This document shows, piece by piece, positions 28-34,448 of a stretch of 34,448 nt of DNA (its first letter is position 1; each line of letters opens with the position of its first letter). The notes below the pieces were generated by a model. The model made no database searches, had not been told where the DNA came from, and saw only the letters and a list, made by a program, of their open reading frames with translations. This stretch comes from Magnetococcales bacterium. GTDB taxonomy: Bacteria > Pseudomonadota > Magnetococcia > Magnetococcales > UBA8363. The position numbers were made by a program, and so were the translations under genes. The stretch lies in contig JACSDG010000071.1 of the NCBI GenBank assembly GCA_015660855.1, forward strand, positions 1 to 34,448, in the 5' to 3' direction.

Positions 28-185
28 GGATCATCCCCCCCGGCGGAGGTTTGGAGGCGGAGCCTCCAAGGTTTTGGTTTTGAATTTGATTTTGACTTTT
101 ATTTTGATTTTACTGCCCCCTAAGGGGGGTCTAGGGGCGCAGCCCCAGGGTTTTGATTTTGTTTCTTTGCCCGAAGGGCCGCATG
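28..185 (+). repeat. Dispersed hairpin repeat, copy R1
   Basis: This copy starts at the GGATCATCCCCCCC core and runs through the TTGGAGGC/GCCTCCAA hairpin and a T-rich TTTTGA stretch (about 75-112). It continues with CCCCC-TAA-GGGGG and GGGGC-GCA-GCCCC hairpins and ends at TGCCCGAAGGGC. It lies beyond the 3' end of the leftward TPR gene. A further hairpin (GGATAGG at 213-219 with CCTATCC at 236-242) lies between the repeat and that stop codon. The 5' part of the repeat (AAATTATTGCGGGGG) is missing here. Confidence 0.8.
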
Positions 186-251
186 TTTGGGTGCACCGCA
201 AACTTTTGCTGGGGATAGGGAGGCTCCTTCCTGGGCCTATCCGCTACACTC

Positions 252-1937
252 TCAAACATTCATGGTGGCAAATATTTGTTCCAATTCCTCCATGATTGGA
301 TCCATCATGTCGGCCTTTTTCATGATTTCTTCCGGTTTTGGTGGTTGCGCCGGTTTTGATGGTTGCGCCGGTTTTTTGTCTACGGAATCTTTTTCTTTTC
401 CCGCATTGTTTTCACTCACCTTAGGAAATAACACATTGGCAACGTGATGCTGCCACTCTCCCATGGTTTTCTCCCATCCCAGTTCCATCTCGCTAAGCGG
501 CCACCCCGCCATTTGGTGCTCGGAAAATTTTTCTTTCAGGGAAGATGCCGCAGGACTGTCCGAAGTAAAAAGCAGTTCCAGGGTCTGTACCTCGGAAATT
601 CGCTGCTGGCGACGCAAAATTTCACCCAAATCTTCCCCTATCCGCTTGTCCGAAGGGGGTACCAACCAACCGGGAAGCAGATTCCCGTGACTTGCCGCAG
701 TATTTTTGGTCAAAAATGCCGAAACAGCCTTTTTGCCAAAATAAATGGCACTCAAGGGTGCTTTGAGACGATCATAAGCCAGCGTGGCAAGATGAAAAAA
801 ATGGTTCTCCATGGCGGATAATTCGGGAATTTGTAACAAGACCAGGGCCTGTTTGAAAAATACCGGTACCTGTTCTGCTTCCCATTCCCGGTTGGCCAGC
901 CAAAAACGCAAATAAAGATTGATCAGCATGGCCGGATGGACCATTTTGTTGGCAAGGGTCAGTATGGCCAAACTTTTCTCCAGCAGGAGCCGGGCCTCCT
1001 GGAATTCATTGGTTTGAATTTTCAAGCATGCAAACTGATTGAGAAACTCGGCAACAAAATGGTGCTCAGGACCATAATGACCGCTGACAATGGCCAAAAT
1101 GCGCTGATAAATGGCCAAAGACTTGTCGGCAAAATTTTGATGCAGATAAAACTGCCCCAGGGAATGCAATGCGGGGAGAATGCCTGGATGTTTTTGTCCA
1201 TGAATGGCTTCTTTGGTATTGATGACTTCCAAAAACAATCTTTCGGCCTCGTTGAGGTTACCGAGTTGTTTGAAGGTTTCGGCCATCAGTTCCTTGGCAA
1301 GCAACGATTCTGGATAATGGGCCAGCAAGGAATGGGAGACTATTTCCAGGGCCTTCTCCAACACAGCCCTGGCAGAGGCATAGGCACCGATTTGTATGTG
1401 AGAGCGCGCCAGATTGTTGAGGACATGAACCAGTTGTGGGGCTTGGTCTCCCAGACCGGAGGAAAAAATTTTCATGGAGCGTCGAATCATGGTCAGTGCC
1501 AGATCATGACGTCCGGTTTCCATACAGAGAAGGGCGTAATTGTTGAGAGTGAATGCGGTATCAAAAGTTGTTCGCAAACTGTTTTTACGGAAAAAAGTGA
1601 GTGATTTTTTAAAATTTTCCTCCGACTCTTTGAACAAACCGGAGCGGTAACAGCAGTAACCGAGTTCATTATGTACCTGTCCCAGAAAACTTGGCCTGGG
1701 GCTGGAGCTATCGGATTCCATAAAAGCGGATTGTTTCCATTTTTCCAGGGCCTTGGCGAAGCTGCCCTTGGATTGGAGATCCACGGCATCTTTCCACAAC
1801 GTTTCGGCCCGGTTTCTTTTCCAATCCTGGGCTTCCACAGGTTTTTTGTTCAGTTGGCGCCATGCAACGAAAATGACACCGAGAGCAATGATCATCCCGA
1901 AGACGGCAAAAAAGGCCAGTAAATTATTGGTCAACAT
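252..1937 (-). CDS. Membrane-anchored tetratricopeptide-repeat protein
   Basis: A 561-residue protein with one N-terminal membrane segment (about residues 7-26, short N-in tail, then basic RQLNKK), followed by a long helical region with at least five TPR-like units. Examples are NELGYCCYRSGLFKESEENF, NNLARSHIQIGAYASARAVL and HSLGQFYLHQNFADKSLAIY. TPR arrays are protein-binding scaffolds; no catalytic domain is visible. The C-terminus has a Pro/Lys-rich linker (KPAQPSKPAQPPKPEE) followed by a Met-rich helix. The start is the only well-placed ATG before the membrane segment, but its ribosome site is weak. The gene stands alone, with repeat R1 downstream. The partner and pathway are unknown. Confidence 0.85.
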   Translation of the reverse strand: MLTNNLLAFFAVFGMIIALGVIFVAWRQLNKKPVEAQDWKRNRAETLWKDAVDLQSKGSFAKALEKWKQSAFMESDSSSPRPSFLGQVHNELGYCCYRSGLFKESEENFKKSLTFFRKNSLRTTFDTAFTLNNYALLCMETGRHDLALTMIRRSMKIFSSGLGDQAPQLVHVLNNLARSHIQIGAYASARAVLEKALEIVSHSLLAHYPESLLAKELMAETFKQLGNLNEAERLFLEVINTKEAIHGQKHPGILPALHSLGQFYLHQNFADKSLAIYQRILAIVSGHYGPEHHFVAEFLNQFACLKIQTNEFQEARLLLEKSLAILTLANKMVHPAMLINLYLRFWLANREWEAEQVPVFFKQALVLLQIPELSAMENHFFHLATLAYDRLKAPLSAIYFGKKAVSAFLTKNTAASHGNLLPGWLVPPSDKRIGEDLGEILRRQQRISEVQTLELLFTSDSPAASSLKEKFSEHQMAGWPLSEMELGWEKTMGEWQHHVANVLFPKVSENNAGKEKDSVDKKPAQPSKPAQPPKPEEIMKKADMMDPIMEELEQIFATMNV

Positions 1938-2582: not shown

Positions 2583-2648
2583 ACGTATCGGAAAAACAAA
2601 GTTTGGCAAAAATCGACAGGGGCTTTGATCTTCGTTTCGGCTACGGAT

Positions 2649-2704
2649 GTAACCGTTCAGTCCCCCCGCCTTTTTTTCTTTAAAAGTGTTGCGGGGGGCC
2701 GGGC
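2649..2704 (+). repeat. Half copy of the GTAACCGTTCA palindromic repeat
   Basis: The sequence begins GTAACCGTTCAGTCCCCCCG, then has a T-run, CTTTAAAAGT and TTGCGGGGGG. It matches the right arm of the full palindrome at 32222-32346 almost base for base in inverse orientation. It lies just after the Nudix gene. Confidence 0.8.
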
Positions 2705-2945: not shown

Positions 2946-3055
2946 TCACGCTCTGCGGGCAAGAACCAAAATTTTGGGGCACCGCCTCAAACCCCGCCGG
3001 GGGGGATGATCTTCCCCGGACCCCCGCAATAACTTTTGCCAAATTTTTCTTCGAT
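2946..3055 (-). repeat. Dispersed hairpin repeat, copy R2, inside the tRNA cluster
   Basis: Read on the minus strand it shows TTTGGCAAAAGTTATTGCGG, then GGTCCGGGGAAGATCATCCC, GGCGGGGTTTGAGG and the closing CTTGCCCGCAGAG. This is the same order as copies R3, R5 and R6. It occupies most of the spacer between tRNA-Arg and tRNA-His. Confidence 0.8.
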
Positions 3056-8060: not shown

Positions 8061-8423
8061 ATAAAATTCGGTTGATTATGAAAAACTGGCCCCTTGGTTG
8101 CAATATCATCGGGCAAGCTGGGTAAACGCCCTGTCGATCATCGAAAAATCAGCAGGTTCCCGGTTGTCGTGGAACCATGGCGATCCATCCGAGAATGGAT
8201 GGAAAACAAGGTTGGACCGTTTTTTTTTCTTGACGCCGTCGGGAAGATTCGTTTATAAGGCCTCTACTATTGGATTGTTGCGGATCGGCCACAGTGTGTG
8301 GTAAATAAGCACGACACGTTGGAGCCGAACCAGTCGGGTTTTTGGGAAATTGTCACATACAAGTCACATACAAAGGTTTCCGGAGCTTCCGGGAGCGGGT
8401 TTTTTAAACTAAGGAGTGAAAGA

Positions 8424-9785
8424 ATGAAAAAGTCGTTGATTCTTGGTGCGGCCGCTCTGGCTGCTGCTACCTGGGCTCCCCTGGCCGATGCCGGCGAAGT
8501 CAAACTGGGCGGCCTTTATTGGGGTCGTTGGCAGTCTTTCGATGCAAACATGGTTGACGAGACGGGTGCTGCGGATACCGGTGAGCGTTATGTGCAGCGT
8601 CTCCAATTGAAGGCGGACATGGTCGCCTCCGAAAAGAGCCACGCCCATATGATCGTTCGGGTGTTGGATGCCGCCAATATTGAAGGTGCTGACCTCGGTA
8701 CCGCTTCTGACGGTGGTGCTGCACTCAATCAGGTTTCTGTTGGTACCAATCTGGCCGATCCCTGGGAAATTCGCCAGATGTGGTTGGAAACCGAAGCTTG
8801 GGGTTTTGGTCTCAAGCTGGGTAACATGCCCATATCCCTCAATGATAAAATTCTTGTGCATGATGACACCTCTTCGTACGGTGGTTTGTTGCTTTCCAAA
8901 ACCTTCGGTAATGTCACCGCTGTGGTGGGCAACATTCGCATCAACGAAGACATGGCCAACGGTGCTTCCGTCAACGACCTGACTGCCGGTGGAGCAGTTA
9001 CGAAAGGTGCTGACAGCGACGACTCCAACCTGTGGGCCGCCAGCTTCTTTGGCAAGGCGGGCATTGCCGACTACAACGCCACCCTGGCTTATGCCAAGTT
9101 GGGCCAAGCTTCCGACTTCATGGATGTCCTTGAGACCACCTGCGGTGCGACTACCCCCTGCGTAACTTCTGATGGTAGCAACCTGTGGGCGGCTTTGACC
9201 TTGGGTAGCAAGTTCGGCAATATCAATGCCACGGGCACTCTCGTTTATGAGGACGGCTACGAGTTGAACCAGGATATTACCGGTTCCGAAGTCAGCAACA
9301 TGTGGTCCAAGTCCGGTGCCCTTGGTGCTTTGCGCCTGGATGGTGCTACCGGTTTCGGTGATTGGAACGCCTACGGGTTCGTTTCCTCCCAAGGGTTCAA
9401 CAATATCTCCAACGACAACATGACGTGGTCGTCGACCTGGGACCAAAGCGGACCGGGCGGTATAGACCTTCTTAACACCTGGGCCAGGGGTGCGGATACC
9501 AACACCTCTGCCAGTGAGAACATGACCGGTCTCGGCGTGGGTCTGAAAATCAAAACTGCTGGCTGGACCATCAATCCCATGTTGGACTACGCGGCAGTGA
9601 CCAGGAACCAAACCACTGCGGCCTCCTGGGATTCTGCTGTCGGCGGCAGCTTGCTGCTCTCCACCCAGATCCAGAAGGATACCACTCTGATGTTGGAGAC
9701 GGCGTTGATCAATCCCCAAGGGATCAGCCTGACCAACGAAGACAATGCCTACTATGCTCAAGCGGGCATCAAGATGACCTTCTGA
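8424..9785 (+). CDS. Outer-membrane porin-like protein, paralogue 1
   Basis: A 453-residue protein with signal peptide 1-23 (MKKSLILGAAALAAATWAPL, cut after ADA) and a mature chain of alternating short beta segments rich in Gly, Asn, Asp and Trp. It ends in ...YYAQAGIKMTF, and a terminal Phe is the usual signal for the BAM assembly machinery. It has no Lys/Arg-rich or catalytic motif, so a beta-barrel channel is the natural reading. The substrate is unknown. The start has AAGGAG seven bases upstream; a longer frame from 8298 adds leader sequence only. The neighbouring paralogue at 10226 is highly similar along its length, so this is a tandem duplication. Two Cys (CGATTPC, about 250) fall in a probable surface loop. 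A strong terminator follows. Confidence 0.85.
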   Translation: MKKSLILGAAALAAATWAPLADAGEVKLGGLYWGRWQSFDANMVDETGAADTGERYVQRLQLKADMVASEKSHAHMIVRVLDAANIEGADLGTASDGGAALNQVSVGTNLADPWEIRQMWLETEAWGFGLKLGNMPISLNDKILVHDDTSSYGGLLLSKTFGNVTAVVGNIRINEDMANGASVNDLTAGGAVTKGADSDDSNLWAASFFGKAGIADYNATLAYAKLGQASDFMDVLETTCGATTPCVTSDGSNLWAALTLGSKFGNINATGTLVYEDGYELNQDITGSEVSNMWSKSGALGALRLDGATGFGDWNAYGFVSSQGFNNISNDNMTWSSTWDQSGPGGIDLLNTWARGADTNTSASENMTGLGVGLKIKTAGWTINPMLDYAAVTRNQTTAASWDSAVGGSLLLSTQIQKDTTLMLETALINPQGISLTNEDNAYYAQAGIKMTF

Positions 9786-9916: not shown

Positions 9917-10012
9917 TTTTTTTTCGACAGTGATGCAAAATGATGACAGGGTGTGTCATCTGGCAACAGTGAAGAGCGTTCTTGTTTTATCGTTTGTTTT
10001 TCAATGTTTTAC
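9917..10012 (+). promoter_or_regulatory. Conserved upstream block of porin gene 2
   Basis: This is the second copy of the block at 7969-8060: TTTTTTTTCGACAGTGATGC, then AAAATGATGACAGG, GGCAACAGTG, TTGTTTTATCG and TTTTTCAATGTTTTACG. It shows that the regulatory region was duplicated with the coding sequence. The remaining 10013-10225 is leader with no supported gene. Confidence 0.5.
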
Positions 10013-10225
10013 GGTTTTTCCGCTGGTTTGCAGAATTATGGACCAGGTATTGCAGTCTGCTTTGGAAGGTTGAAACATCCTTGGCAGGTGCTGTGGTTTT
10101 TACGACACATCCGGTTTTCCGGTTTCACCGAAGACAGGGGTGGAACTTTTTATCTGTTTTTATGCGGGTTACATCAAAAAAATCCGGGATTTCCGGAACA
10201 TCTCTACTTTGAATGGGAAGGACTT

Positions 10226-11584
10226 ATGAAAAAATCGTTGATTCTTGGTCTGTCTGCCATGGCTGCTGTGACTTGCGCCTCCCTGGCCAGTGCCGGCGAA
10301 GTCAAGCTTGGGGGGGGCTACATGGGCCGCTGGCAGGTGTTTGACGCCAACATGGTGGATGAGGTTGCTCCTGCGGATCATGGTGAACAGTACGTCCATG
10401 AGCTGCAACTGAACGCCGACATGGTTGCGTCCGAAAAGAGCCATGCCCACTTGCGTGTCATGGTTCTCGACACGGCAACGATCGAAGGTTCCGATCTGGG
10501 TACGGCTTCGGATGGTGGTGCCGCGCTTAACCAGGTTTCCGTTGGGACCAACTTGGTTGATCCCTGGGAAATTCGTCAAATGTGGTTGGAAACCGAAGCC
10601 TATGGTTTCGGTGTCAAGCTTGGTGCAATGCCCATCTCTTTCAACGACAGCATTCTTGTGGGTGATGACACCTCTGCCCATGGCGGTTTGCTGCTCTCCA
10701 AGACTTTTGGCGGTGTTACCGCCGTGGTTGGCAACCTTCGCGCCAACGAAGACTCGGCCAATGGTGCATCTGTCAATGATCTAAACGCTGCCGGTCGTGC
10801 CACCAAGGGTGCTGACAGTGACGACGCTAATTTGTGGGTAGCCAGCTTGTTTGGCAAAGCGGGTATTGCCGACTATAATTTCACCCTATCCTATGCCGAT
10901 ATGGGTCCGGCTTCCGACTTCATGGATTATCTGGAGACCACTTGTACGGGTCTCGCTACGTGCAACACCTCCGATGGTAACAATCTGTGGACGGCTTTGA
11001 CCCTGGGAAGCAAGTTTGGCAACATCAATGCGATTGGTACCTTGATTTATGAAAACGGCTACGACCTGTCACAAGATGGCACGGGAGCCGAAATTTCCAA
11101 CCTGTGGACCAACTCCGGCGTGCTTGGTGCGGTGCGGTTGAACGGTTCCTTGGGGTTTGGCGAATGGAACGCCTATGGTTTCAGTGCTACCAAAGGTTTC
11201 AACAATATCAGCAATGACAACATGGTATGGTCGGCTACCTGGGATCAAAGCGGGCCGAATGGTATCGATCTTCTGAGCAACTTTGCCAATGGCGCGGGTA
11301 CCAACACTTCTCCCAGTGAAAACATGACGGGTGTGGGTGTGGGGTTGAAGATCAAAGCGGGTGCTTGGATCATCAATCCCATGCTTGACTATGCTGCGGT
11401 AAGCGAAAGTCAGGCTGGCGACGTGCGTGACTCTGCGATCGGGGGTAGCTTGTTGCTTTCCACCGAGATCCAAAAGGCTACTACCCTGTTGCTGGAAACG
11501 GCCATGGTCAGTCCTGAAGGGATCAACAACGCCAGCGTAGACAATGCCTACTATGCTCAGGCGGGGGTCAAGGTAAGCTTCTGA
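10226..11584 (+). CDS. Outer-membrane porin-like protein, paralogue 2
   Basis: A 452-residue paralogue of the preceding gene. It has the same opening (MKKSLILG), signal cut after ASA at 23, shared blocks such as SEKSHAH, GTASDGGAALNQVSVGTNL and DPWEIRQMWLETEA, and the same barrel-type ending (YYAQAGVKVSF). Differences cluster in predicted loops (for example CTGLATC versus CGATTPC near residue 250), as expected if the two channels have diverged in permeability or surface antigenicity. The start has GGGAAGGA close upstream of the ATG. An in-frame reading upstream to 9953 is leader and is rejected. The gene has its own terminator. Confidence 0.85.
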   Translation: MKKSLILGLSAMAAVTCASLASAGEVKLGGGYMGRWQVFDANMVDEVAPADHGEQYVHELQLNADMVASEKSHAHLRVMVLDTATIEGSDLGTASDGGAALNQVSVGTNLVDPWEIRQMWLETEAYGFGVKLGAMPISFNDSILVGDDTSAHGGLLLSKTFGGVTAVVGNLRANEDSANGASVNDLNAAGRATKGADSDDANLWVASLFGKAGIADYNFTLSYADMGPASDFMDYLETTCTGLATCNTSDGNNLWTALTLGSKFGNINAIGTLIYENGYDLSQDGTGAEISNLWTNSGVLGAVRLNGSLGFGEWNAYGFSATKGFNNISNDNMVWSATWDQSGPNGIDLLSNFANGAGTNTSPSENMTGVGVGLKIKAGAWIINPMLDYAAVSESQAGDVRDSAIGGSLLLSTEIQKATTLLLETAMVSPEGINNASVDNAYYAQAGVKVSF

Positions 11585-12356: not shown

Positions 12357-12363
12357 AGTACGC

Positions 12364-12477
12364 GTATCGGAAAAATAAAGTTTGGCAAGAATTATTATGG
12401 GGGCTCGGGGGGGATCAGCCCCCCCGGCGGGGGGGTAAATACCCAAAGGTTTTTATTCTTGCCCGGAAGGCATCATG
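12364..12477 (+). repeat. Dispersed hairpin repeat, copy R3
   Basis: The sequence has AAATAAAGTTTGGCAAGAAT, then TATTATGGGGGCTCGGGGGG with GATCAGCCCCCCCGGCGG and a shortened middle, ending with CTTGCCCGGAAGGCATCATG. It sits between convergent genes, and its end supplies the last codons of the nuclease gene on the other strand. Confidence 0.85.
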
Positions 12478-13487
12478 TTTGAAAAAACTTCCTCCAGTGA
12501 TTTGGCATCAAAAATACGAAGACTCCACTCTTCCAATGAGGGTGGTTCGGCCTTGGCTATTTTTTTGTTGGCCCATGCGGGCAGATTGCCAAAGCGGCGT
12601 TGCAATAGGCGGGTCAGGATTTTAGCCTCGCCTTTCTGCTCGCCTCTCTGCTCGCCTCTCTGCTCGCCTCTCTGCTCGCCAATTTGTTCACCGATCTGGA
12701 TGCCCATCAATCTTCCTCTTTCCTCACCAATCCGCTCCACGCTTGTCATATACGGCATCTTTTGGTTCTCCTCAAAGCGGGACAGTTCTTCCCAAAACCG
12801 GTTATCGGCCTCTGCCGGTAAGCTGAGTACCCAGTCGATAAACCGATAAAGATCAATGACTTTTTGCCTATTGAATCCGCGACGATACAGGCTGCGCGTA
12901 ATGTGCTGCTTTGCCCGGTAACGTTCATCCGGCAGGTTTTTTGTCTGTTTGGCACGCAGGTGCGCCAGGGTCACGATGGCAAAAGGATTGTCGGACGTTT
13001 CCAGCTCGGAGAGATGATCCAGATAATCCAATAACTTTACTGTGTTGAATCGGTAAATCAGCTCCGATCCCCAGAGCACTTGGCGGTACTCCGAAACCCG
13101 CCAGCTCGGCTCTTCGTCCGCCAAAATTGCCAAACCAACGACCGGTTTACGGTGGAGGTCATAGGCCCGATGCTGACATGTGTACATTCGCTCCGCAAAT
13201 TCGGGATCACGGCCCCCCTGAACTTCGACATGAATCAATACCCAAAGTTCATCACCATTGATTAACCACACTTTTACCAGCAAATCCACACGGCGATTGA
13301 TAGCTTTTGCCTCTTTTGTAATCCGGTCCAATTCTTTGTCCAGGAACTCAGGGACACGCTGCCAATCAATGCCGTCACGAGCCTCTGGAAGAAAAAATGC
13401 TAAAAAATCCTCGAAATACGCCTTCAAAATCTCTTTCCACGGCGAGTCGTACTCTGTTGGTTGGCTCTGATTGTCGGGATCGGTCAT
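12453..13487 (-). CDS. Rpn-family (PD-(D/E)XK) nuclease / putative transposase
   Basis: A 344-residue protein. The N-terminal half carries a PD-(D/E)XK-like core: RRVDLLVKVW, then WVLIHVEVQ, with the Asp and Glu-x-Gln in place of the usual catalytic triad ends. A helical region and a coiled (I)GEQ repeat follow. The C-terminal ~55 residues (LTRLLQRRFGNLP... LEEWSLRIFDAKSLEEVF) resemble DUF4351. Rpn proteins are RecA-independent recombination-promoting nucleases, often annotated as transposases. The start at 13487 has GAGAACG upstream. The frame continuing to 13751 would run through tRNA-Gly in antisense and is rejected. Two oddities are a 12-bp tandem repeat inside the gene (GEQRGEQRGEQRGEQK) and a C-terminus MMPSGQE encoded by repeat R3. 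Confidence 0.82.
   Translation of the reverse strand: MTDPDNQSQPTEYDSPWKEILKAYFEDFLAFFLPEARDGIDWQRVPEFLDKELDRITKEAKAINRRVDLLVKVWLINGDELWVLIHVEVQGGRDPEFAERMYTCQHRAYDLHRKPVVGLAILADEEPSWRVSEYRQVLWGSELIYRFNTVKLLDYLDHLSELETSDNPFAIVTLAHLRAKQTKNLPDERYRAKQHITRSLYRRGFNRQKVIDLYRFIDWVLSLPAEADNRFWEELSRFEENQKMPYMTSVERIGEERGRLMGIQIGEQIGEQRGEQRGEQRGEQKGEAKILTRLLQRRFGNLPAWANKKIAKAEPPSLEEWSLRIFDAKSLEEVFSNMMPSGQE
12633..12680. repeat. 12-bp tandem repeat inside the nuclease gene
   Basis: The unit TCTCTGCTCGCC occurs about four times in a row, with degenerate flanking units. On the coding strand it encodes GEQR/GEQK. Twelve bases are in frame, so copy-number change would alter linker length without breaking the gene. 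Confidence 0.85.
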
Positions 13488-13946: not shown

Positions 13947-14207
13947 ATGAGCGAAACTGAGTCATCGTCGCCAGATCCATCTTTTGTTGGCAGGATACCC
14001 TGGATTGCGTTGCTGCCCATTGCCTTTTTCATGGCCATTGCCCCGGTCAGTCCGCAACCCCACCTTTGGGAAAAATTAAAAATGCTGTCTGACGGAACCT
14101 TGTCCCGTCCCCTCGATATTTTCGACCTTCTCATGCACAGCACGCCTTTGGTACTGGTCGTCATCAAGGGGTTTAAACAATTTCGGTCTGGCAAGGAGGC
14201 GTTGTGA
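13947..14207 (+). CDS. Small membrane protein upstream of shikimate kinase
   Basis: An 86-residue protein with a hydrophilic N-terminus, one clear membrane segment (IPWIALLPIAFFMAIAPVS, about residues 17-35), a loop, and a second hydrophobic stretch (LLMHSTPLVLVVIKGF) near the C-terminus. I do not recognise the family. It overlaps the shikimate-kinase start (GTGA), and the ribosome site of that gene lies within its end, so the two are translated together. An earlier in-frame ATG at 13926 adds seven residues and has no better ribosome site. Only two hydrophobic segments and no charged motif are visible, so no function is proposed. Confidence 0.7.
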   Translation: MSETESSSPDPSFVGRIPWIALLPIAFFMAIAPVSPQPHLWEKLKMLSDGTLSRPLDIFDLLMHSTPLVLVVIKGFKQFRSGKEAL

Positions 14208-14746
14208 ATTTAATTTTGATTGGCATGCGTGGCGCGGGCAAGTCCAACATTTCTCGTCGTCTTGCCGCCCTGACCAAACGTCCGGTGATGTCTACCGATG
14301 CCCTGATTTCCTACGAAAACCAGGGCTGTTCCATTCCGATCCTTCTTGAAAAAACAGGGGGTGACTGGCGAACTTTCAGAGATTTGGAAACCCAGGTGGT
14401 ACAAAAGGTTGCCGCGATGGATGATGTCATCATCGATACGGGAGGTGGAGTGGTGGTGGATTTGGATGACGAAGGTCGGGAAATCTACAGCCGTCGCAAA
14501 ATGGATGCCCTGAAAAAAAACGGTCGGGTCATATGGCTTGAAGGTGATATTGTTCGCTTGGCCGCCAAGGCCACTGCCGACTCTCGTCGTCCTTCCCTGA
14601 GTGCCACCGAGAGCGAAGAAGCCATCATGCGTCGTCGTCTTCCTTTCTACCAGCGAGCTGCCGACCATGCGGTCAACATTGAAGGGATCCGCCGTGAAAT
14701 TTTAGCGGTGAAAGTTTGCATGTTGGCTGATTTTTGGCTGACATAG
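14204..14746 (+). CDS. aroK: Shikimate kinase family protein
   Basis: A 180-residue P-loop kinase that phosphorylates shikimate in aromatic amino-acid synthesis. It has the Walker A GMRGAGKS (7-14), the shikimate-side RTFRDLE, the DTGGG motif and a lid segment SRRPSL. The GTG start lies five bases after AAGGAGG and overlaps the preceding stop. Compared with canonical AroK (where the P-loop is usually followed by TVGR), the sequence here reads SNISRRLA, and the residue after the first beta strand is STDALI rather than DTD. It may therefore be a divergent paralogue. No aroB follows, which is the usual partner. I am confident in the fold and moderately confident in shikimate as substrate. Confidence 0.8.
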   Translation: MNLILIGMRGAGKSNISRRLAALTKRPVMSTDALISYENQGCSIPILLEKTGGDWRTFRDLETQVVQKVAAMDDVIIDTGGGVVVDLDDEGREIYSRRKMDALKKNGRVIWLEGDIVRLAAKATADSRRPSLSATESEEAIMRRRLPFYQRAADHAVNIEGIRREILAVKVCMLADFWLT

Positions 14747-14767: not shown

Positions 14768-14862
14768 AAATTATCGCGGGGATTAAGGGGGGATCATCCC
14801 CCCCGATGGGGTTTGGGGGCGAGAGCACCCAAGGCATTGTTTTTTGCCCGCAGGGCATCATG
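14768..14862 (+). repeat. Dispersed hairpin repeat, copy R4 (degenerate)
   Basis: The sequence has TTATCGCGGGGATTAAGGGG then GGATCATCCCCCCC, GGGGTTTGGGGGC and a final TTGCCCGCAGGGCATCATG. It lies between convergent genes, and most of it is read as the C-terminal codons of the ankyrin gene on the minus strand. Confidence 0.8.
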
Positions 14863-15609
14863 TTCCATCTTTTGCGCCACCTCGGTGTCACCCTGGAGAG
14901 TGGCTAGGTTGTGAGGATTTTGCCCTTCGCCATCTTCAAGGGTGGGATCGGCTCCCGCCTGTATGAGGTGGGATACCATCTCCAGGCTGTGCCGCCCCAC
15001 CGCCAAGTGCAGTGGGGTGCGGCCTTTGGGGGTGCGGATGTTGACATCGACCCCTTGGGAAATCAACAGCTTTACCACCCCTTCATGGCCAAAAAAGGTG
15101 GCGCAATGCAATGGTTGGTTGCCTTCCAGATTGCGCACATCTTTGCGTGCGCCATGCTGCAATAGCAACGACGCCACTTCCTGGTTGCCTTCCTGGCAGG
15201 ACTGATAAAAAGGAGTCTCACCATAACGGTCGGTCGCTTCCATATTGGCACCATGTTCCAGAAGGATCCGGGCCACCTCGACATGATTCCAGGAGGCGGC
15301 CCAATGCAGCGGTGTTTCCAGATCCAGATCGGTCATGTTCACTTCAGCCCCATGTTGCAGGAGCGTCCGGGTTAGGGCACTGTTACCCCGCACCGCTGCC
15401 CAATGCAACGGAGTCCACTGATAGTTGTCGGTGGCATTGATATCGACTCCCGCCCGCAGGAGGTGGGCGACTAGGTTTTCCATTCCTTCTTGAACCGCCC
15501 GATGCAATGCGGTCCAACCCTCACTATCCTTGGCACCGACATCTTCGCCCGCCTCCAGTCGCCGCATCACCGGCAAGGGATCCCACCCGTCCGTGTTTTG
15601 ATCGGTCAA
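14794..15609 (-). CDS. Ankyrin-repeat protein
   Basis: A 271-residue protein made almost wholly of ankyrin units with exact 33-residue spacing. Repeat starts are GWTALHRA (31), QWTPLHWA (64), LETPLHWA (97), GETPFYQS (130), GNQPLHCA (163), GRTPLHLA (196) and a weaker GQNPHNLA (229). Ankyrin arrays bind proteins; no enzyme domain or signal peptide is visible, so a cytoplasmic role is likely. The start is a TTG with GGGGAG eight bases upstream. An ATG nearer that site is out of frame and stops after three codons, and the in-frame Met15 is an alternative. The last ~22 residues (from HDALRAKNN to PKPHRGG) come from repeat R4 rather than from ankyrin sequence. Confidence 0.85.
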
Positions 15610-17044: not shown

Positions 17045-17190
17045 AAAGCTAAAATTTTGCAAAAATTATTGTGGGGGTCCGGGGGGGATCATCCCCCCCG
17101 GCGGAGGTTTGGAGGCAGAGCCTCCAAGGTTTTTCTTTTGACTTTGATTTTGACTTTGATTTTGATTTTACTGCCCGCAGGGTATCATGT
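17045..17190 (+). repeat. Dispersed hairpin repeat, copy R5
   Basis: This is a near-complete copy: AAATTATTGTGGGGGTCCGG, GGGATCATCCCCCCCGGCGG, the TTTGGAGGC-AGA-GCCTCCAA hairpin, a long TTTTGA/CTTTGA tract (17133-17169) and TGCCCGCAGGGTATCATG. It starts two bases after the hemL stop. Confidence 0.88.
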
Positions 17191-17288
17191 TCCAGGCTCG
17201 ACTTTCATGCCGTAGAGGTCAGGCCCAGGCAGCTTTCCCTGTCTGGCCGACCCCCTTCCAACCCACGGTTCAAGTTCGATAATCGCTT

Positions 17289-22438: not shown

Positions 22439-23793
22439 ACGGTTCTGTTCAACTTCCCTGGGAAGAATATCGCGACAGTGCCAAAACGGTGTTGGGGTTT
22501 CGCCGTGTCGGTCGAGTTTCCCAGGTTGTGGGACTCCTTATTGAAAGCACCGGCCCCGCTGCTTCCATTGGCGATTTGTGTGAGGTCATTCCCGAAGGGG
22601 ATACGGAGCCGGTCAAGGCGGAGGTTGTGGGATTTCGCAATAATGCTTTGTTGCTCATGCCCCTGGGTTCGCTCAAGGGGATTCATCCCGGCAGCGTGGT
22701 TGTCTCCGAAAACCGCTCGGAAATGGTTGGGGTCGGCCCGGAATTGCTGGGTCGGGTGCTTGGGCCTTTGGGCCAGCCTATCGATAATGGTCCACCCATC
22801 CATACCCATGAGCGTATGCCGTTGTATTCCGATCCCATCAACCCCATGCAACGCCGTCGCATTGAAGAACCCCTGGACATCGGCATTCGTGCCATCAACG
22901 CCCTTTTGACTTTGGGACGGGGGCAGCGCATCGGCATTTTTTCCGGTTCCGGGGTTGGGAAAAGTACATTGCTTGGCATGATGGCTCGCTATACCGAGGC
23001 CGATGTCAATGTGATCGGCTTGGTTGGCGAACGGGGACGGGAGGTGGTGGAATTTTTGGAAAAGGATTTGGGGCCGGAAGGGATGTCACGGTCGGTGGTT
23101 GTTGTTGCGACTTCGGACCAACCGCCACTGCTCCGGTTGCGGGCGGCTTTTCTGGCCACGGCCATTGCGGAATATTTTCGCGCCAAGGAAAAACATGTGT
23201 TGCTGTTGATGGATTCCGTGACCCGTTTTGCCATGGCCCAACGGGAAGTCGGTTTGGCCAGGGGGGAACCTCCCACCAGTCGTGGCTATCCCCCGTCCAC
23301 TTTCATGCTGCTGCCAAAGTTGTTGGAACGGGCTGGCCGTGATCAGGGGAGTGGCAGTATCACGGGTTTGTACACGGTGTTGATGGAAGGGGATGACCTC
23401 CAGGATCCCATTGTCGATGCCGTGCGTGGTATTCTCGACGGCCATTTTGTCCTTTCCCGCGATTTGGCTGCTGCCAATCACTATCCCGCTCTGGATATTC
23501 TCGCTTCCATTTCGCGTCTCATGGTGGATTTGGTGGATGACGAACAGGCCCGGTGGGCGGCACAATTGCGTGAAGCCCTGGCCTCCTACGTCCGTGCCGA
23601 GGACATGATTAATATCGGGGCCTACGTTGCCGGCAGCAACCCCCGTATTGACCGATCCATTCAGTTGATTGAACCGATCCGTACCTTTTTAAAACAATCG
23701 GTGCGGCAAGGGTGTTCCATGACGGAAAGTGTGGCTATGATGACGCAAATTTTCAACGTCAAACCACCTGTCGCCTCCAGACCGTTGCGGTAA
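22435..23793 (+). CDS. fliI: Flagellum-specific ATP synthase FliI
   Basis: A 452-residue ATPase of the type III export apparatus, related to F1 beta. The P-loop is GIFSGSGVGKST (167-178), the Walker B region is LLLMDSVTRFAMAQREVGLA, and EPPTSRGYPPS follows. The whole chain aligns with the family in length. It starts within the fliH stop and is the last gene of the run. No fliJ follows; instead repeat R6 begins right after the stop, so the export chaperone must lie elsewhere. Confidence 0.97.
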   Translation: MNGSVQLPWEEYRDSAKTVLGFRRVGRVSQVVGLLIESTGPAASIGDLCEVIPEGDTEPVKAEVVGFRNNALLLMPLGSLKGIHPGSVVVSENRSEMVGVGPELLGRVLGPLGQPIDNGPPIHTHERMPLYSDPINPMQRRRIEEPLDIGIRAINALLTLGRGQRIGIFSGSGVGKSTLLGMMARYTEADVNVIGLVGERGREVVEFLEKDLGPEGMSRSVVVVATSDQPPLLRLRAAFLATAIAEYFRAKEKHVLLLMDSVTRFAMAQREVGLARGEPPTSRGYPPSTFMLLPKLLERAGRDQGSGSITGLYTVLMEGDDLQDPIVDAVRGILDGHFVLSRDLAAANHYPALDILASISRLMVDLVDDEQARWAAQLREALASYVRAEDMINIGAYVAGSNPRIDRSIQLIEPIRTFLKQSVRQGCSMTESVAMMTQIFNVKPPVASRPLR

Positions 23794-23795
23794 TA

Positions 23796-23970
23796 ATAAA
23801 GTTTGCCAAAAATTATTGCGGGGGTCCGGGGGGGATCATCCCCCCCGGCGGAGGTTTGGAGGCGGAGCCTCCAAGGTTTTGTTTTTGAATTTAAACAAAA
23901 AGCTTCATTGCCTATGGGGGTTTGGGGGCTAAACCCCCAAGGTTTTGATTCATGCCCGAAGGGCATGGTG
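23796..23970 (+). repeat. Dispersed hairpin repeat, copy R6
   Basis: This is the fullest copy: AAAGTTTGCCAAAAATTATT, GCGGGGGTCCGGGGGGGATC, the ATCCCCCCC arm, TTTGGAGGC-GGA-GCCTCCAA, a second hairpin TTGGGGG-CTAAA-CCCCCAA and a final TGCCCGAAGGGCA. It lies between the convergent fliI and SDR genes. Confidence 0.9.
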
Positions 23971-26338: not shown

Positions 26339-26380
26339 TTTCGGGGACACCCGACTAAATTTTTCGGAATTCCCGAAATT
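26339..26380 (+). repeat. Copy of the mobile-element end sequence (third copy)
   Basis: The sequence has TTTCGGGGACACCCGACTAA, then ATTTTTCGGAATTCCCGAAATT. It matches the end sequence at 33684-33735 (CCGGAGACACCCGACTAAAT... GGGAATCCCGGGAAATT). It is joined directly to the left copy of the DUF1640-like unit. Confidence 0.65.
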
Positions 26381-26913
26381 CCAAAGTCGCTTTGAGCACA
26401 CGCTTGATCGTTTCGAGGGTTGTCGGTTGCCCTTAACATGGGCAGCATTTTGTCTGTCGTTCGCTGGATGCTCGTGGTACGCTGTGATTGAATGTACTCT
26501 TGGAAGGAGATCTCCCCGTGAACACAGCCATGACGTTTGACACGTTGGCGTATGCCAAAAGATTGAAAGCTGTCGGATTCACCGAAGCCCAGGCAGAAGT
26601 TCAGGCTGAGACCATCGTTGAGTTGATGGAAGAGCGGCTGGCAACCAAGTTGGACATTGAAGTCGTAAGGCGCGACATGAAAGAAATGGAAACCGGACTC
26701 AAGCGCGACATGAAGGAACTTGATGCCGGCTTACAAGCCAAGATGAAGGAAATGGAAACCGGACTCAAGCGCGACATGAAGGAACTTGATGCCAGCTTAC
26801 AGGCCAAGATGAGGGAAATGGAGTTGCGTCTTACGCACAATCTGACCCTGCGCCTTGGCGGCATGATGGCCGCATCGGTGGTGATCGTGGCGGCACTGGT
26901 GAAGCTGCTTTGA
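26376..26913 (+). repeat. Long direct repeat, left copy
   Basis: From 26376 on, the sequence matches 34084 onward with only scattered substitutions, through the promoter/leader stretch and into the coiled-coil gene. The right copy runs off the window end. The repeats are about 7.7 kb apart and flank the seven-gene cassette. A stem GTTGCCC-TTAACAT-GGGCAGC in the leader is kept in both copies. Confidence 0.9.
26518..26913 (+). CDS. DUF1640-like coiled-coil membrane protein, left copy
   Basis: A 131-residue protein. The N-terminal domain (TFDTLAYAKRLKAVGFTEAQ, then VELMEERLATKLDIEVVRRD) resembles the bacterial DUF1640 family. This is followed by a pure coiled coil built from two 25-codon tandem units (MKEMETGLKRDMKELDAGLQ and its near copy) and a C-terminal membrane anchor (GGMMAASVVIVAALVKLL). 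The GTG at 26518 lies eight bases after AAGGAG; an in-frame ATG is four codons later. Family members are small membrane proteins often found in several copies near mobile DNA, and their role is unknown. A second copy begins at 34226. Confidence 0.8.
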   Translation: MNTAMTFDTLAYAKRLKAVGFTEAQAEVQAETIVELMEERLATKLDIEVVRRDMKEMETGLKRDMKELDAGLQAKMKEMETGLKRDMKELDASLQAKMREMELRLTHNLTLRLGGMMAASVVIVAALVKLL

Positions 26914-32221: not shown

Positions 32222-32346
32222 GTAACCGTTCACCCCCCCCCCTTTTTTTTAGGTTGAAACTATTGCGGGGGTTCGGGGGGGAGAACCTCCCCCCGGACCC
32301 CCGCAATACTTTTAAAGAAAAAAAGGCGGGGGGACTGAACGGTTAC
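32222..32346. repeat. Large palindromic repeat (full copy)
   Basis: A 125-base near-palindrome. GTAACCGTTCA at the left faces TGAACGGTTAC at the right. Between them, C-run/T-run and A-run/G-run arms and ATTGCGGGGGTTCGG / CCGGACCCCCGCAAT pair around a CGGGGGGGAGAACCTCCCCC centre. A half copy lies at 2649-2704, and its inner GGGGGTCCGGGGGGGA core is shared with the R1-R6 family. It separates the GAPDH-like gene from the ACP gene. Confidence 0.88.
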
Positions 32347-34080: not shown

Positions 34081-34083
34081 CCT

Positions 34084-34448
34084 AAATTCCAAAGCCGCCT
34101 TGAGCATACGCTTGATCGTTCCGAGGGTTGTCGGCTGCCCTTAACACGGGCGGCATTTTGTTTGTCGTTCGCTGGATGCTCGTGGTACGCTGTGATTGAA
34201 TGTACTTTTGGAAGGAGATCTCCCCGTGAACACAGCTATGACGTTTGACACGCTGGCGTATGCCAAAAAGTTGAAAGCTGTCGGGTTCACCGAAGCTCAG
34301 GCGGAAGTCCAGGCTGAGACCATCGTTGAGTTGATGGAAGAGCGGCTGGCAACCAAGTTGGACATCGAGGTTGTAAGGCGCGACATGAAGGAAATGGAAA
34401 CCGGACTCAAGCGCGACATGAAGGAAATGGAAACCGGACTCAAGCGCG
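34084..34448 (+). repeat. Long direct repeat, right copy (truncated by window end)
   Basis: It matches 26376 onward. The leader hairpin here reads GCTGCCC-TTAACAC-GGGCGGC: substitutions against the left copy fall on both arms and keep pairing through G-C or G-U. It begins directly after the IS110 remnant. Confidence 0.9.
34226..34448 (+). CDS. DUF1640-like coiled-coil protein, right copy (partial)
   Basis: This is the second copy of the gene at 26518, incomplete at the window edge. It has the same GTG start after GGAAGGAGATCTCCCC and the same N-terminal domain (TFDTLAYAKKLKAVGFTEAQ). The coiled-coil region differs: here the 11-codon unit MKEMETGLKRD is repeated head to tail, whereas the left copy alternates it with MKELDAGLQAK. 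Coil length therefore varies between copies. The C-terminal membrane anchor is outside the window. Confidence 0.82.
   Translation, partial: MNTAMTFDTLAYAKKLKAVGFTEAQAEVQAETIVELMEERLATKLDIEVVRRDMKEMETGLKRDMKEMETGLKR

Follow-up and report, generated by a model that had tools for sequence, protein, structure and literature searches.

A dispersed hairpin-rich repeat supplies the C-termini of a nuclease and an ankyrin protein in a Magnetococcales genome

Genes and repeat copies of the window

The window, which is the whole 34,448-nt stretch of Magnetococcales DNA that was analysed, contains copies of a dispersed repeat lying beside genes that include those for an Rpn-like nuclease, an ankyrin-repeat protein, HemL and FliI (Table 1). 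Rfam matches in the window consisted of tRNAs only. Two genes from other parts of the same genome are listed in the table with their own coordinates.

Table 1. Coordinates of repeat copies, genes and repeat-coded gene ends
Feature	Position	Strand	Remarks
Repeat R1	28..187	+	Left end missing; beside 3' end of TPR gene 252-1937 (-); terminator-like hairpin 50-70; module BLAST
Repeat left arm	2584..2700	+	1 nt past Nudix stop (2582); adjoins part of a GTAACC MITE; module BLAST
Inverted repeat copy	2968..3047	-	Between tRNA genes; module BLAST
Repeat R3, short form	12363..12480 (borders approximate)	+	Left arm GTATCGGAAAAATAAAGTTTGGCAAGAATT, G/C hairpin, right arm GCCCGGAAGGCATCATGTT; module BLAST, border profiles
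NMMPSGQE codons and stop TAA of Rpn-like nuclease, read from R3	12453..12479	-	Sequence and ORFs
Rpn-like nuclease gene	12453..13487	-	DUF4351 C-terminal domain; Pfam PF14261; many homologues
Repeat R4	14768..14865	+	Shortened or divergent left arm, G/C hairpin, right arm GCCCGCAGGGCATCATGTTC; module BLAST, border profiles
Last 23 codons and stop TGA of ankyrin protein, read from R4	14794..14865	-	Sequence and ORFs; orthologues stop earlier
Ankyrin-repeat protein gene	14794..15609	-	Pfam Ank families; convergent with shikimate kinase (14204-14746, +)
Repeat R5	17051..17192	+	7 nt past hemL stop (17043); terminator-like hairpin 17108-17128; module BLAST
Repeat R6	23792..23969	+	Directly past fliI stop (23793), convergent with SDR gene; terminator-like hairpins 23855-23875, 23915-23941
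Palindromic MITE	32222..32346		GTAACCGTTCA inverted ends; 8-nt target duplication CTTCCATC on both sides; G/C core in common with main repeat
Cytochrome c1 gene	L106:15896-16705	-	C-terminal membrane anchor replaced by repeat-coded residues
MCP-hemerythrin fusion gene	L107:9117-11909	-	Last conserved 24 residues replaced by repeat-coded CGGPGGIIPPGGGLEAEPPRFFF

Structure of the repeat

Alignment of many copies gave a consensus of ~198 nt for the full repeat, with modules in the order GTATCGGAAAAACAAAGTTTGGCAAAAATTATTG, G/C hairpin GGGGGGGATCATCCCCCCC, second hairpin with a T-rich tail TTTGGAGGCGGAGCCTCCAAGGTTTTTCTTTTGA, (TTTGAT)n, third hairpin and right arm. The modules are variable and full copies range from 92 to 303 nt. 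Border profiles placed the left end at GTATCGG and revealed a sharp right border at GCATCATGTTC, where conservation was 0.88-0.95 at the last bases versus 0.37 at the next base; in the many-copy alignment the right end reads TTTTTGCCCGAAGGGCATCATGTTC, with random sequence beyond. Terminal inverted repeats were not detected in the main repeat, the ends of which (GTATCGGAAAAAC... and ...GCATCATGTTC) are dissimilar, and there was no target-site duplication among 30 full copies (best flank match 0.34 versus a null median of 0.333). On the opposite strand the right arm reads GAACATGATGCCC..GGGCAAAA, and its three frames encode EHDALRAK.., NMMPxGQ.. and T followed by a stop. Another repeat unit, CCCCATATGCGCTAACGTTGTTATTGG, recurrently takes the place of the left arm of the main element (L110:16960-16995, L025 and the complement of L101).

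C-termini of the nuclease and the ankyrin protein

The Rpn-like protein ends in ...DAKSLEEVFS-NMMPSGQE followed by TAA. The eight residues after VFS are encoded by positions 12479-12456 and the stop by positions 12455-12453, all inside R3, in the second frame of the opposite-strand right arm. The ankyrin protein ends with 23 residues (14865-14797) and a TGA stop (14796-14794) from GGATGATC, all inside R4, and its tail uses the first frame of this arm (EHDALRAK..). A first-pass annotation had already assigned both C-termini and their stops to the repeat copies, that of the nuclease to the closing arm of R3; both assignments were confirmed with small corrections, as it had counted seven residues for the nuclease, and ~22 residues with a border at 14862, instead of 14865, for the ankyrin protein.

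NMMPSGQE was absent from the ends of all 13 sibling Rpn genes of the same genome whose C-terminus aligned. Most of these siblings end in VFS plus three or four unrelated residues, with a few ending otherwise, and the closest Rpn orthologues end in VFSDHR and IFSDKQ. A syntenic empty site for R3, sought through the lipoprotein neighbour in the other fetched Rpn loci, was not found. The Rpn-like family is large: the present genome has ~35 matches and relatives have as many as ~60, several of them in tandem (e.g. G006:C88).

Ankyrin orthologues from four congeneric species have no tail and end in ..AQRLQK, ..VSKMT, ..AQRLKNI and ..AKRLESA, with stops at the tail start or no more than three codons from it. 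In one of these species (L066) the ankyrin gene is still convergent with aroK and the spacer is free of the repeat. In G007 (L065), a further species whose contig ends in repeat, the orthologue carries a repeat-coded tail of its own (EHDALRAKK..) that begins almost where the tail does in the genome studied here (G000). This common start might go back to a single old tail instead of two separate insertions. However, two insertions are favoured by a third species (G002), which has no tail though it is nearer to G000 by FliI identity (90 versus 88 %). The alignment with orthologues proposed in the first-pass annotation as a way of locating the ancestral stop has an answer for both genes, in that ankyrin and Rpn relatives end at or near the start of the tail; repeat-free genes sharing the same last residues, which that annotation regarded as evidence against its reading, were looked for among the ankyrin orthologues and Rpn siblings and none was seen.

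Repeat-coded C-termini elsewhere in the genome

A survey of 773 kb of the genome, taken as 20 kb stretches in which 625 genes were called with a home-made caller, extended the scan for such C-termini beyond the window. About 11-12 of the 625 genes (about 1.8 %) carried a repeat-derived tail of at least eight residues. Besides the window pair, the tailed proteins included BamD-like, TgpA-like transglutaminase, cytochrome c1, SerA, LapA-domain, cyclase-like and MCP-hemerythrin proteins; most match Pfam families, and the cyclase-like label was read from the sequence. The tails in these other genes come either from the arm used by the window pair or from the opposite one, and all six element frames are used. 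Only in this genome did queries that included a tail match hundreds of sites (361 versus 47-92 first-look candidates, and 129 versus 2-9). Overlap with genes was almost confined to C-termini, with one spanning case in 121 elements.

TgpA orthologues end at the point where the repeat tail of TgpA starts. For the Rpn, ankyrin and TgpA proteins, the comparison of sequences indicates that no more than a few codons were lost along with the stop, and that the repeat left a net longer protein. The repeat thus appears to replace the ancestral stop and to supply the last residues and a new stop, which is the type of event described for RU-1 and QMITE elements.

Two proteins were shortened. Cytochrome c1 ends like ..KSLGFWVLGYLFILTVLLYAVKRRIWAKVH in six congeneric species and continues as ..KS-CLAKIFAGVRGGSSPPAEVW.. 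here; the C-terminal membrane helix present in the six species (e.g. ..GFWVLGYLFILTVLLYAVKRRIWAKVH before the stop) is replaced by ..CLAKIFAGVRGGSSPPAEVWRQQPTKVFLLTLILV, and the missing anchor helix was not found anywhere else in the assembly. The MCP-hemerythrin protein lacks ~24 residues common to five congeneric orthologues (e.g. ..AWLTQHIMEVDHAYAPFLKEKGVG before the stop). The lost end includes an HxxxxD stretch, which we take to carry iron ligands in hemerythrins. The downstream neighbour of this gene is conserved.

According to these observations, a dispersed repeat contributes measurably to C-terminal change in this Magnetococcales genome, affecting about 1.8 % of surveyed genes in all frames, with effects ranging from harmless extensions to the predicted loss of the cytochrome c1 membrane anchor. 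They also call for caution in annotation, as EHDALRAK...PNPRRGG would be a false shared C-terminal motif, reflecting repeat DNA rather than homology.

Copy number and placement of the repeat

A first look gave 659-808 repeat candidates across the 4.5 Mb genome. Of 41 genomes of the order that were searched, 30 had related copies. Module BLAST of the surveyed stretches yielded 145 repeat clusters. Of these, 121 were at least 45 nt long and were counted as elements, at a density of ~1 per 6 kb; the repeat takes up about 2.2 % of the DNA. By this copy number and the size of its full copies, the repeat resembles a short, non-autonomous, high-copy MITE; this label was ruled out for the main repeat by the lack of inverted ends and target duplications.

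The elements were unevenly distributed between gene arrangements, occurring in 39 % of convergent gene pairs (30 of 77), in 52 of 429 tandem pairs and in 10 % of divergent pairs (8 of 78). Elements in tandem pairs mostly had the orientation of the genes (40 of 47; P=1e-6), and positions within spacers were skewed toward the upstream stop (KS P=1.5e-8). Only one of 121 elements was wholly within a gene call, despite 83 % of the DNA being coding. Repeats of the same kind, differently arranged, were also seen by eye 3' of fliI in four species and 3' of the ankyrin gene in three. Selection against insertion within genes, a target preference or a useful role at 3' ends could each produce this pattern; we infer that most of the bias is due to the first of these.

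Origin of the repeat-coded tails

The tails are most probably accidental and mostly tolerated new C-termini, produced by a mobile hairpin-rich repeat at gene 3' ends. Mobility is suggested by the copy number, the dispersal and the absence of copies in orthologues. A high-copy, modular, hairpin-rich interspersed repeat of about 90-300 nt would spread through the genome, with copies at or just past gene 3' ends as the main survivors. A copy landing a few codons before a stop would remove it, and the ribosome would read into the arm until it met a stop within the element; overlap of the last codons by either the right or the left arm would then create a new protein end, mostly tolerated. The tails themselves are presumably without function. 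The sense-strand hairpin and T run of R1, R5 and R6 might plausibly terminate transcription.

The first-pass annotation had offered two readings, namely that the repeat truncated and capped the genes on insertion or that it was co-opted as coding sequence. The first reading fits, though with a qualification: the window genes lost only ~1-3 codons and the stop and gained a net longer tail; true truncation was seen at other loci of the genome, in the cytochrome c1 anchor and the MCP-hemerythrin end. The second reading was not borne out. Tails occur in all six frames and are missing from repeat-free orthologues, and open frames in full copies numbered 44 in total versus 37.5 +/- 5.2 in dinucleotide shuffles. 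A frame held open by selection was rejected on this count, and taken together with the tail-free siblings these comparisons give no sign of co-option.

It is possible, though on balance unlikely, that the repeat is instead a domesticated 3'-end module, supplying a terminator and a stop codon under selection, with tails as by-products. The strong 3'-end location and co-orientation are in keeping with such a role, as is the recurrence of these repeats after fliI and the ankyrin gene across species. R1, R5 and R6 also contain the terminator-like hairpin TTTGGAGGCnGAGCCTCCAAGGTTTT on the sense strand, a GC stem that precedes a T-rich tract. However, R3 and R4 have no listed terminator-like match, selection against damage would leave the same placement, and the cytochrome c1 and MCP truncations resemble damage rather than service.

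The accidental origin of the tails also has to be weighed against short-read assembly, in which unrelated flanks might have been joined at collapsed repeats. The genome is a draft of 238 contigs, many ending in repeat, and an assembly join could be the cause of the cytochrome c1 truncation, which is the less secure case because draft contigs end at repeats. As a general explanation artefact is very improbable, since breakpoints in the Rpn, ankyrin and TgpA genes coincide with the ancestral stop or fall just a few codons from it, unlike random joins. It is unlikely for the ankyrin gene, whose R4 flanks, ankyrin and aroK, are adjacent without the repeat in another species, and is excluded for the MCP gene by the synteny of its downstream neighbour. 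A reading of the tails as co-opted peptides serving some common function, such as the recurring C-terminal ..PNPRRGG, is hardly credible: the ankyrin, TgpA and BamD-like tails share a frame and end in RGG, and the tail of the G007 ankyrin protein begins in the same way, but the recurring ..RRGG end is the G/C hairpin of the repeat itself read in one frame, tails occur in all six frames, openness does not exceed chance, and most orthologues and sibling genes have no tail.

Relation to known elements

A literature search for this repeat in Magnetococc* found no description of it; the repeat-coded C-terminus is an already published type of event, known from RU-1/ERIC and QMITE1/2. QMITE1 and QMITE2 of Coxiella burnetii are similar high-copy short hairpin elements that overlap gene 3' ends and alter C-termini: all affected functional genes have the insertion at the 3' end, pntAA and nagZ are overlapped by 42 and 50 bp, and QMITE2 supplies 33 EnhC residues in one strain (PMC5896051). 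They differ in host and, for QMITE2, in having terminal inverted repeats and direct repeats (PMC5896051), neither of which was found for the main element; two clear damaging truncations were found here. The same kind of event is known for the enterobacterial RU-1/ERIC, RU-2/YPAL and RU-3, with amidase ECA3499 losing its normal stop and gaining 35 residues through an RU-1 fusion at its 3' end, and RU-2 extending ECA4072 by ERMG, although these are palindromic MITEs of other hosts, several with target duplications (PMC2759123, PMC2229807). Rickettsia palindromic elements are likewise translated within host proteins (reviewed in PMC2229807), but are described as in-frame insertions inside genes, whereas overlap here is almost only C-terminal. 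SPRITE, the rho-independent-terminator-like repeat of another host, pneumococcus, is also interspersed, carries terminator-like sequence and clusters with other repeats (PMC10969869).

REP/BIME elements share the hundreds of copies, the hairpins and the location 3' of genes, mostly in convergent or unidirectional spacers (PMC3733652), a location that the present repeat has also. In contrast to REP/BIME with RAYT, no GTAG/CGTC-tagged unit of 20-40 nt was recognised in the present repeat, whose left end reads GTATCGG, and there is no intact Y1 transposase: a PF01797 search of the genome gave two fragments, both with stop codons. A RAYT/Y1 mobiliser was rejected because these broken pieces are the only ones and because, in relatives, the main element was not seen next to intact Y1 genes. 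It is improbable that the repeat represents a distinct class of mobile repeats, defined by asymmetric ends, no target duplication, a TTTnAC-like left flank and a preference for sense-oriented insertion at the 3' ends of transcription units, which would supply a terminator and, on overshoot, a stop and tail.

The GTAACC element and other features of the window

Terminal inverted repeats with target duplication are found in a separate element, the GTAACC MITE. The window copy is a near-perfect palindrome of 125 nt. Exact 8-nt duplications flank three copies with GTAACCGTTCAG inverted ends, the others being L102:3607-3720 and L110:12561-12756. The ends of this MITE may be IS66-like.

The window also contains two 300-nt direct repeats that are 93 % identical (26373-26672 and 34081-34380). 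Each leads into an ORF of coiled-coil type that contains 33-nt tandem repeats, and between the two lie transferase, ligase, phosphatase-like and GAPDH-like genes in one block. Two porin-like genes (8298-9785 and 9953-11584) are tandem duplicates with about 71-78 % DNA identity.
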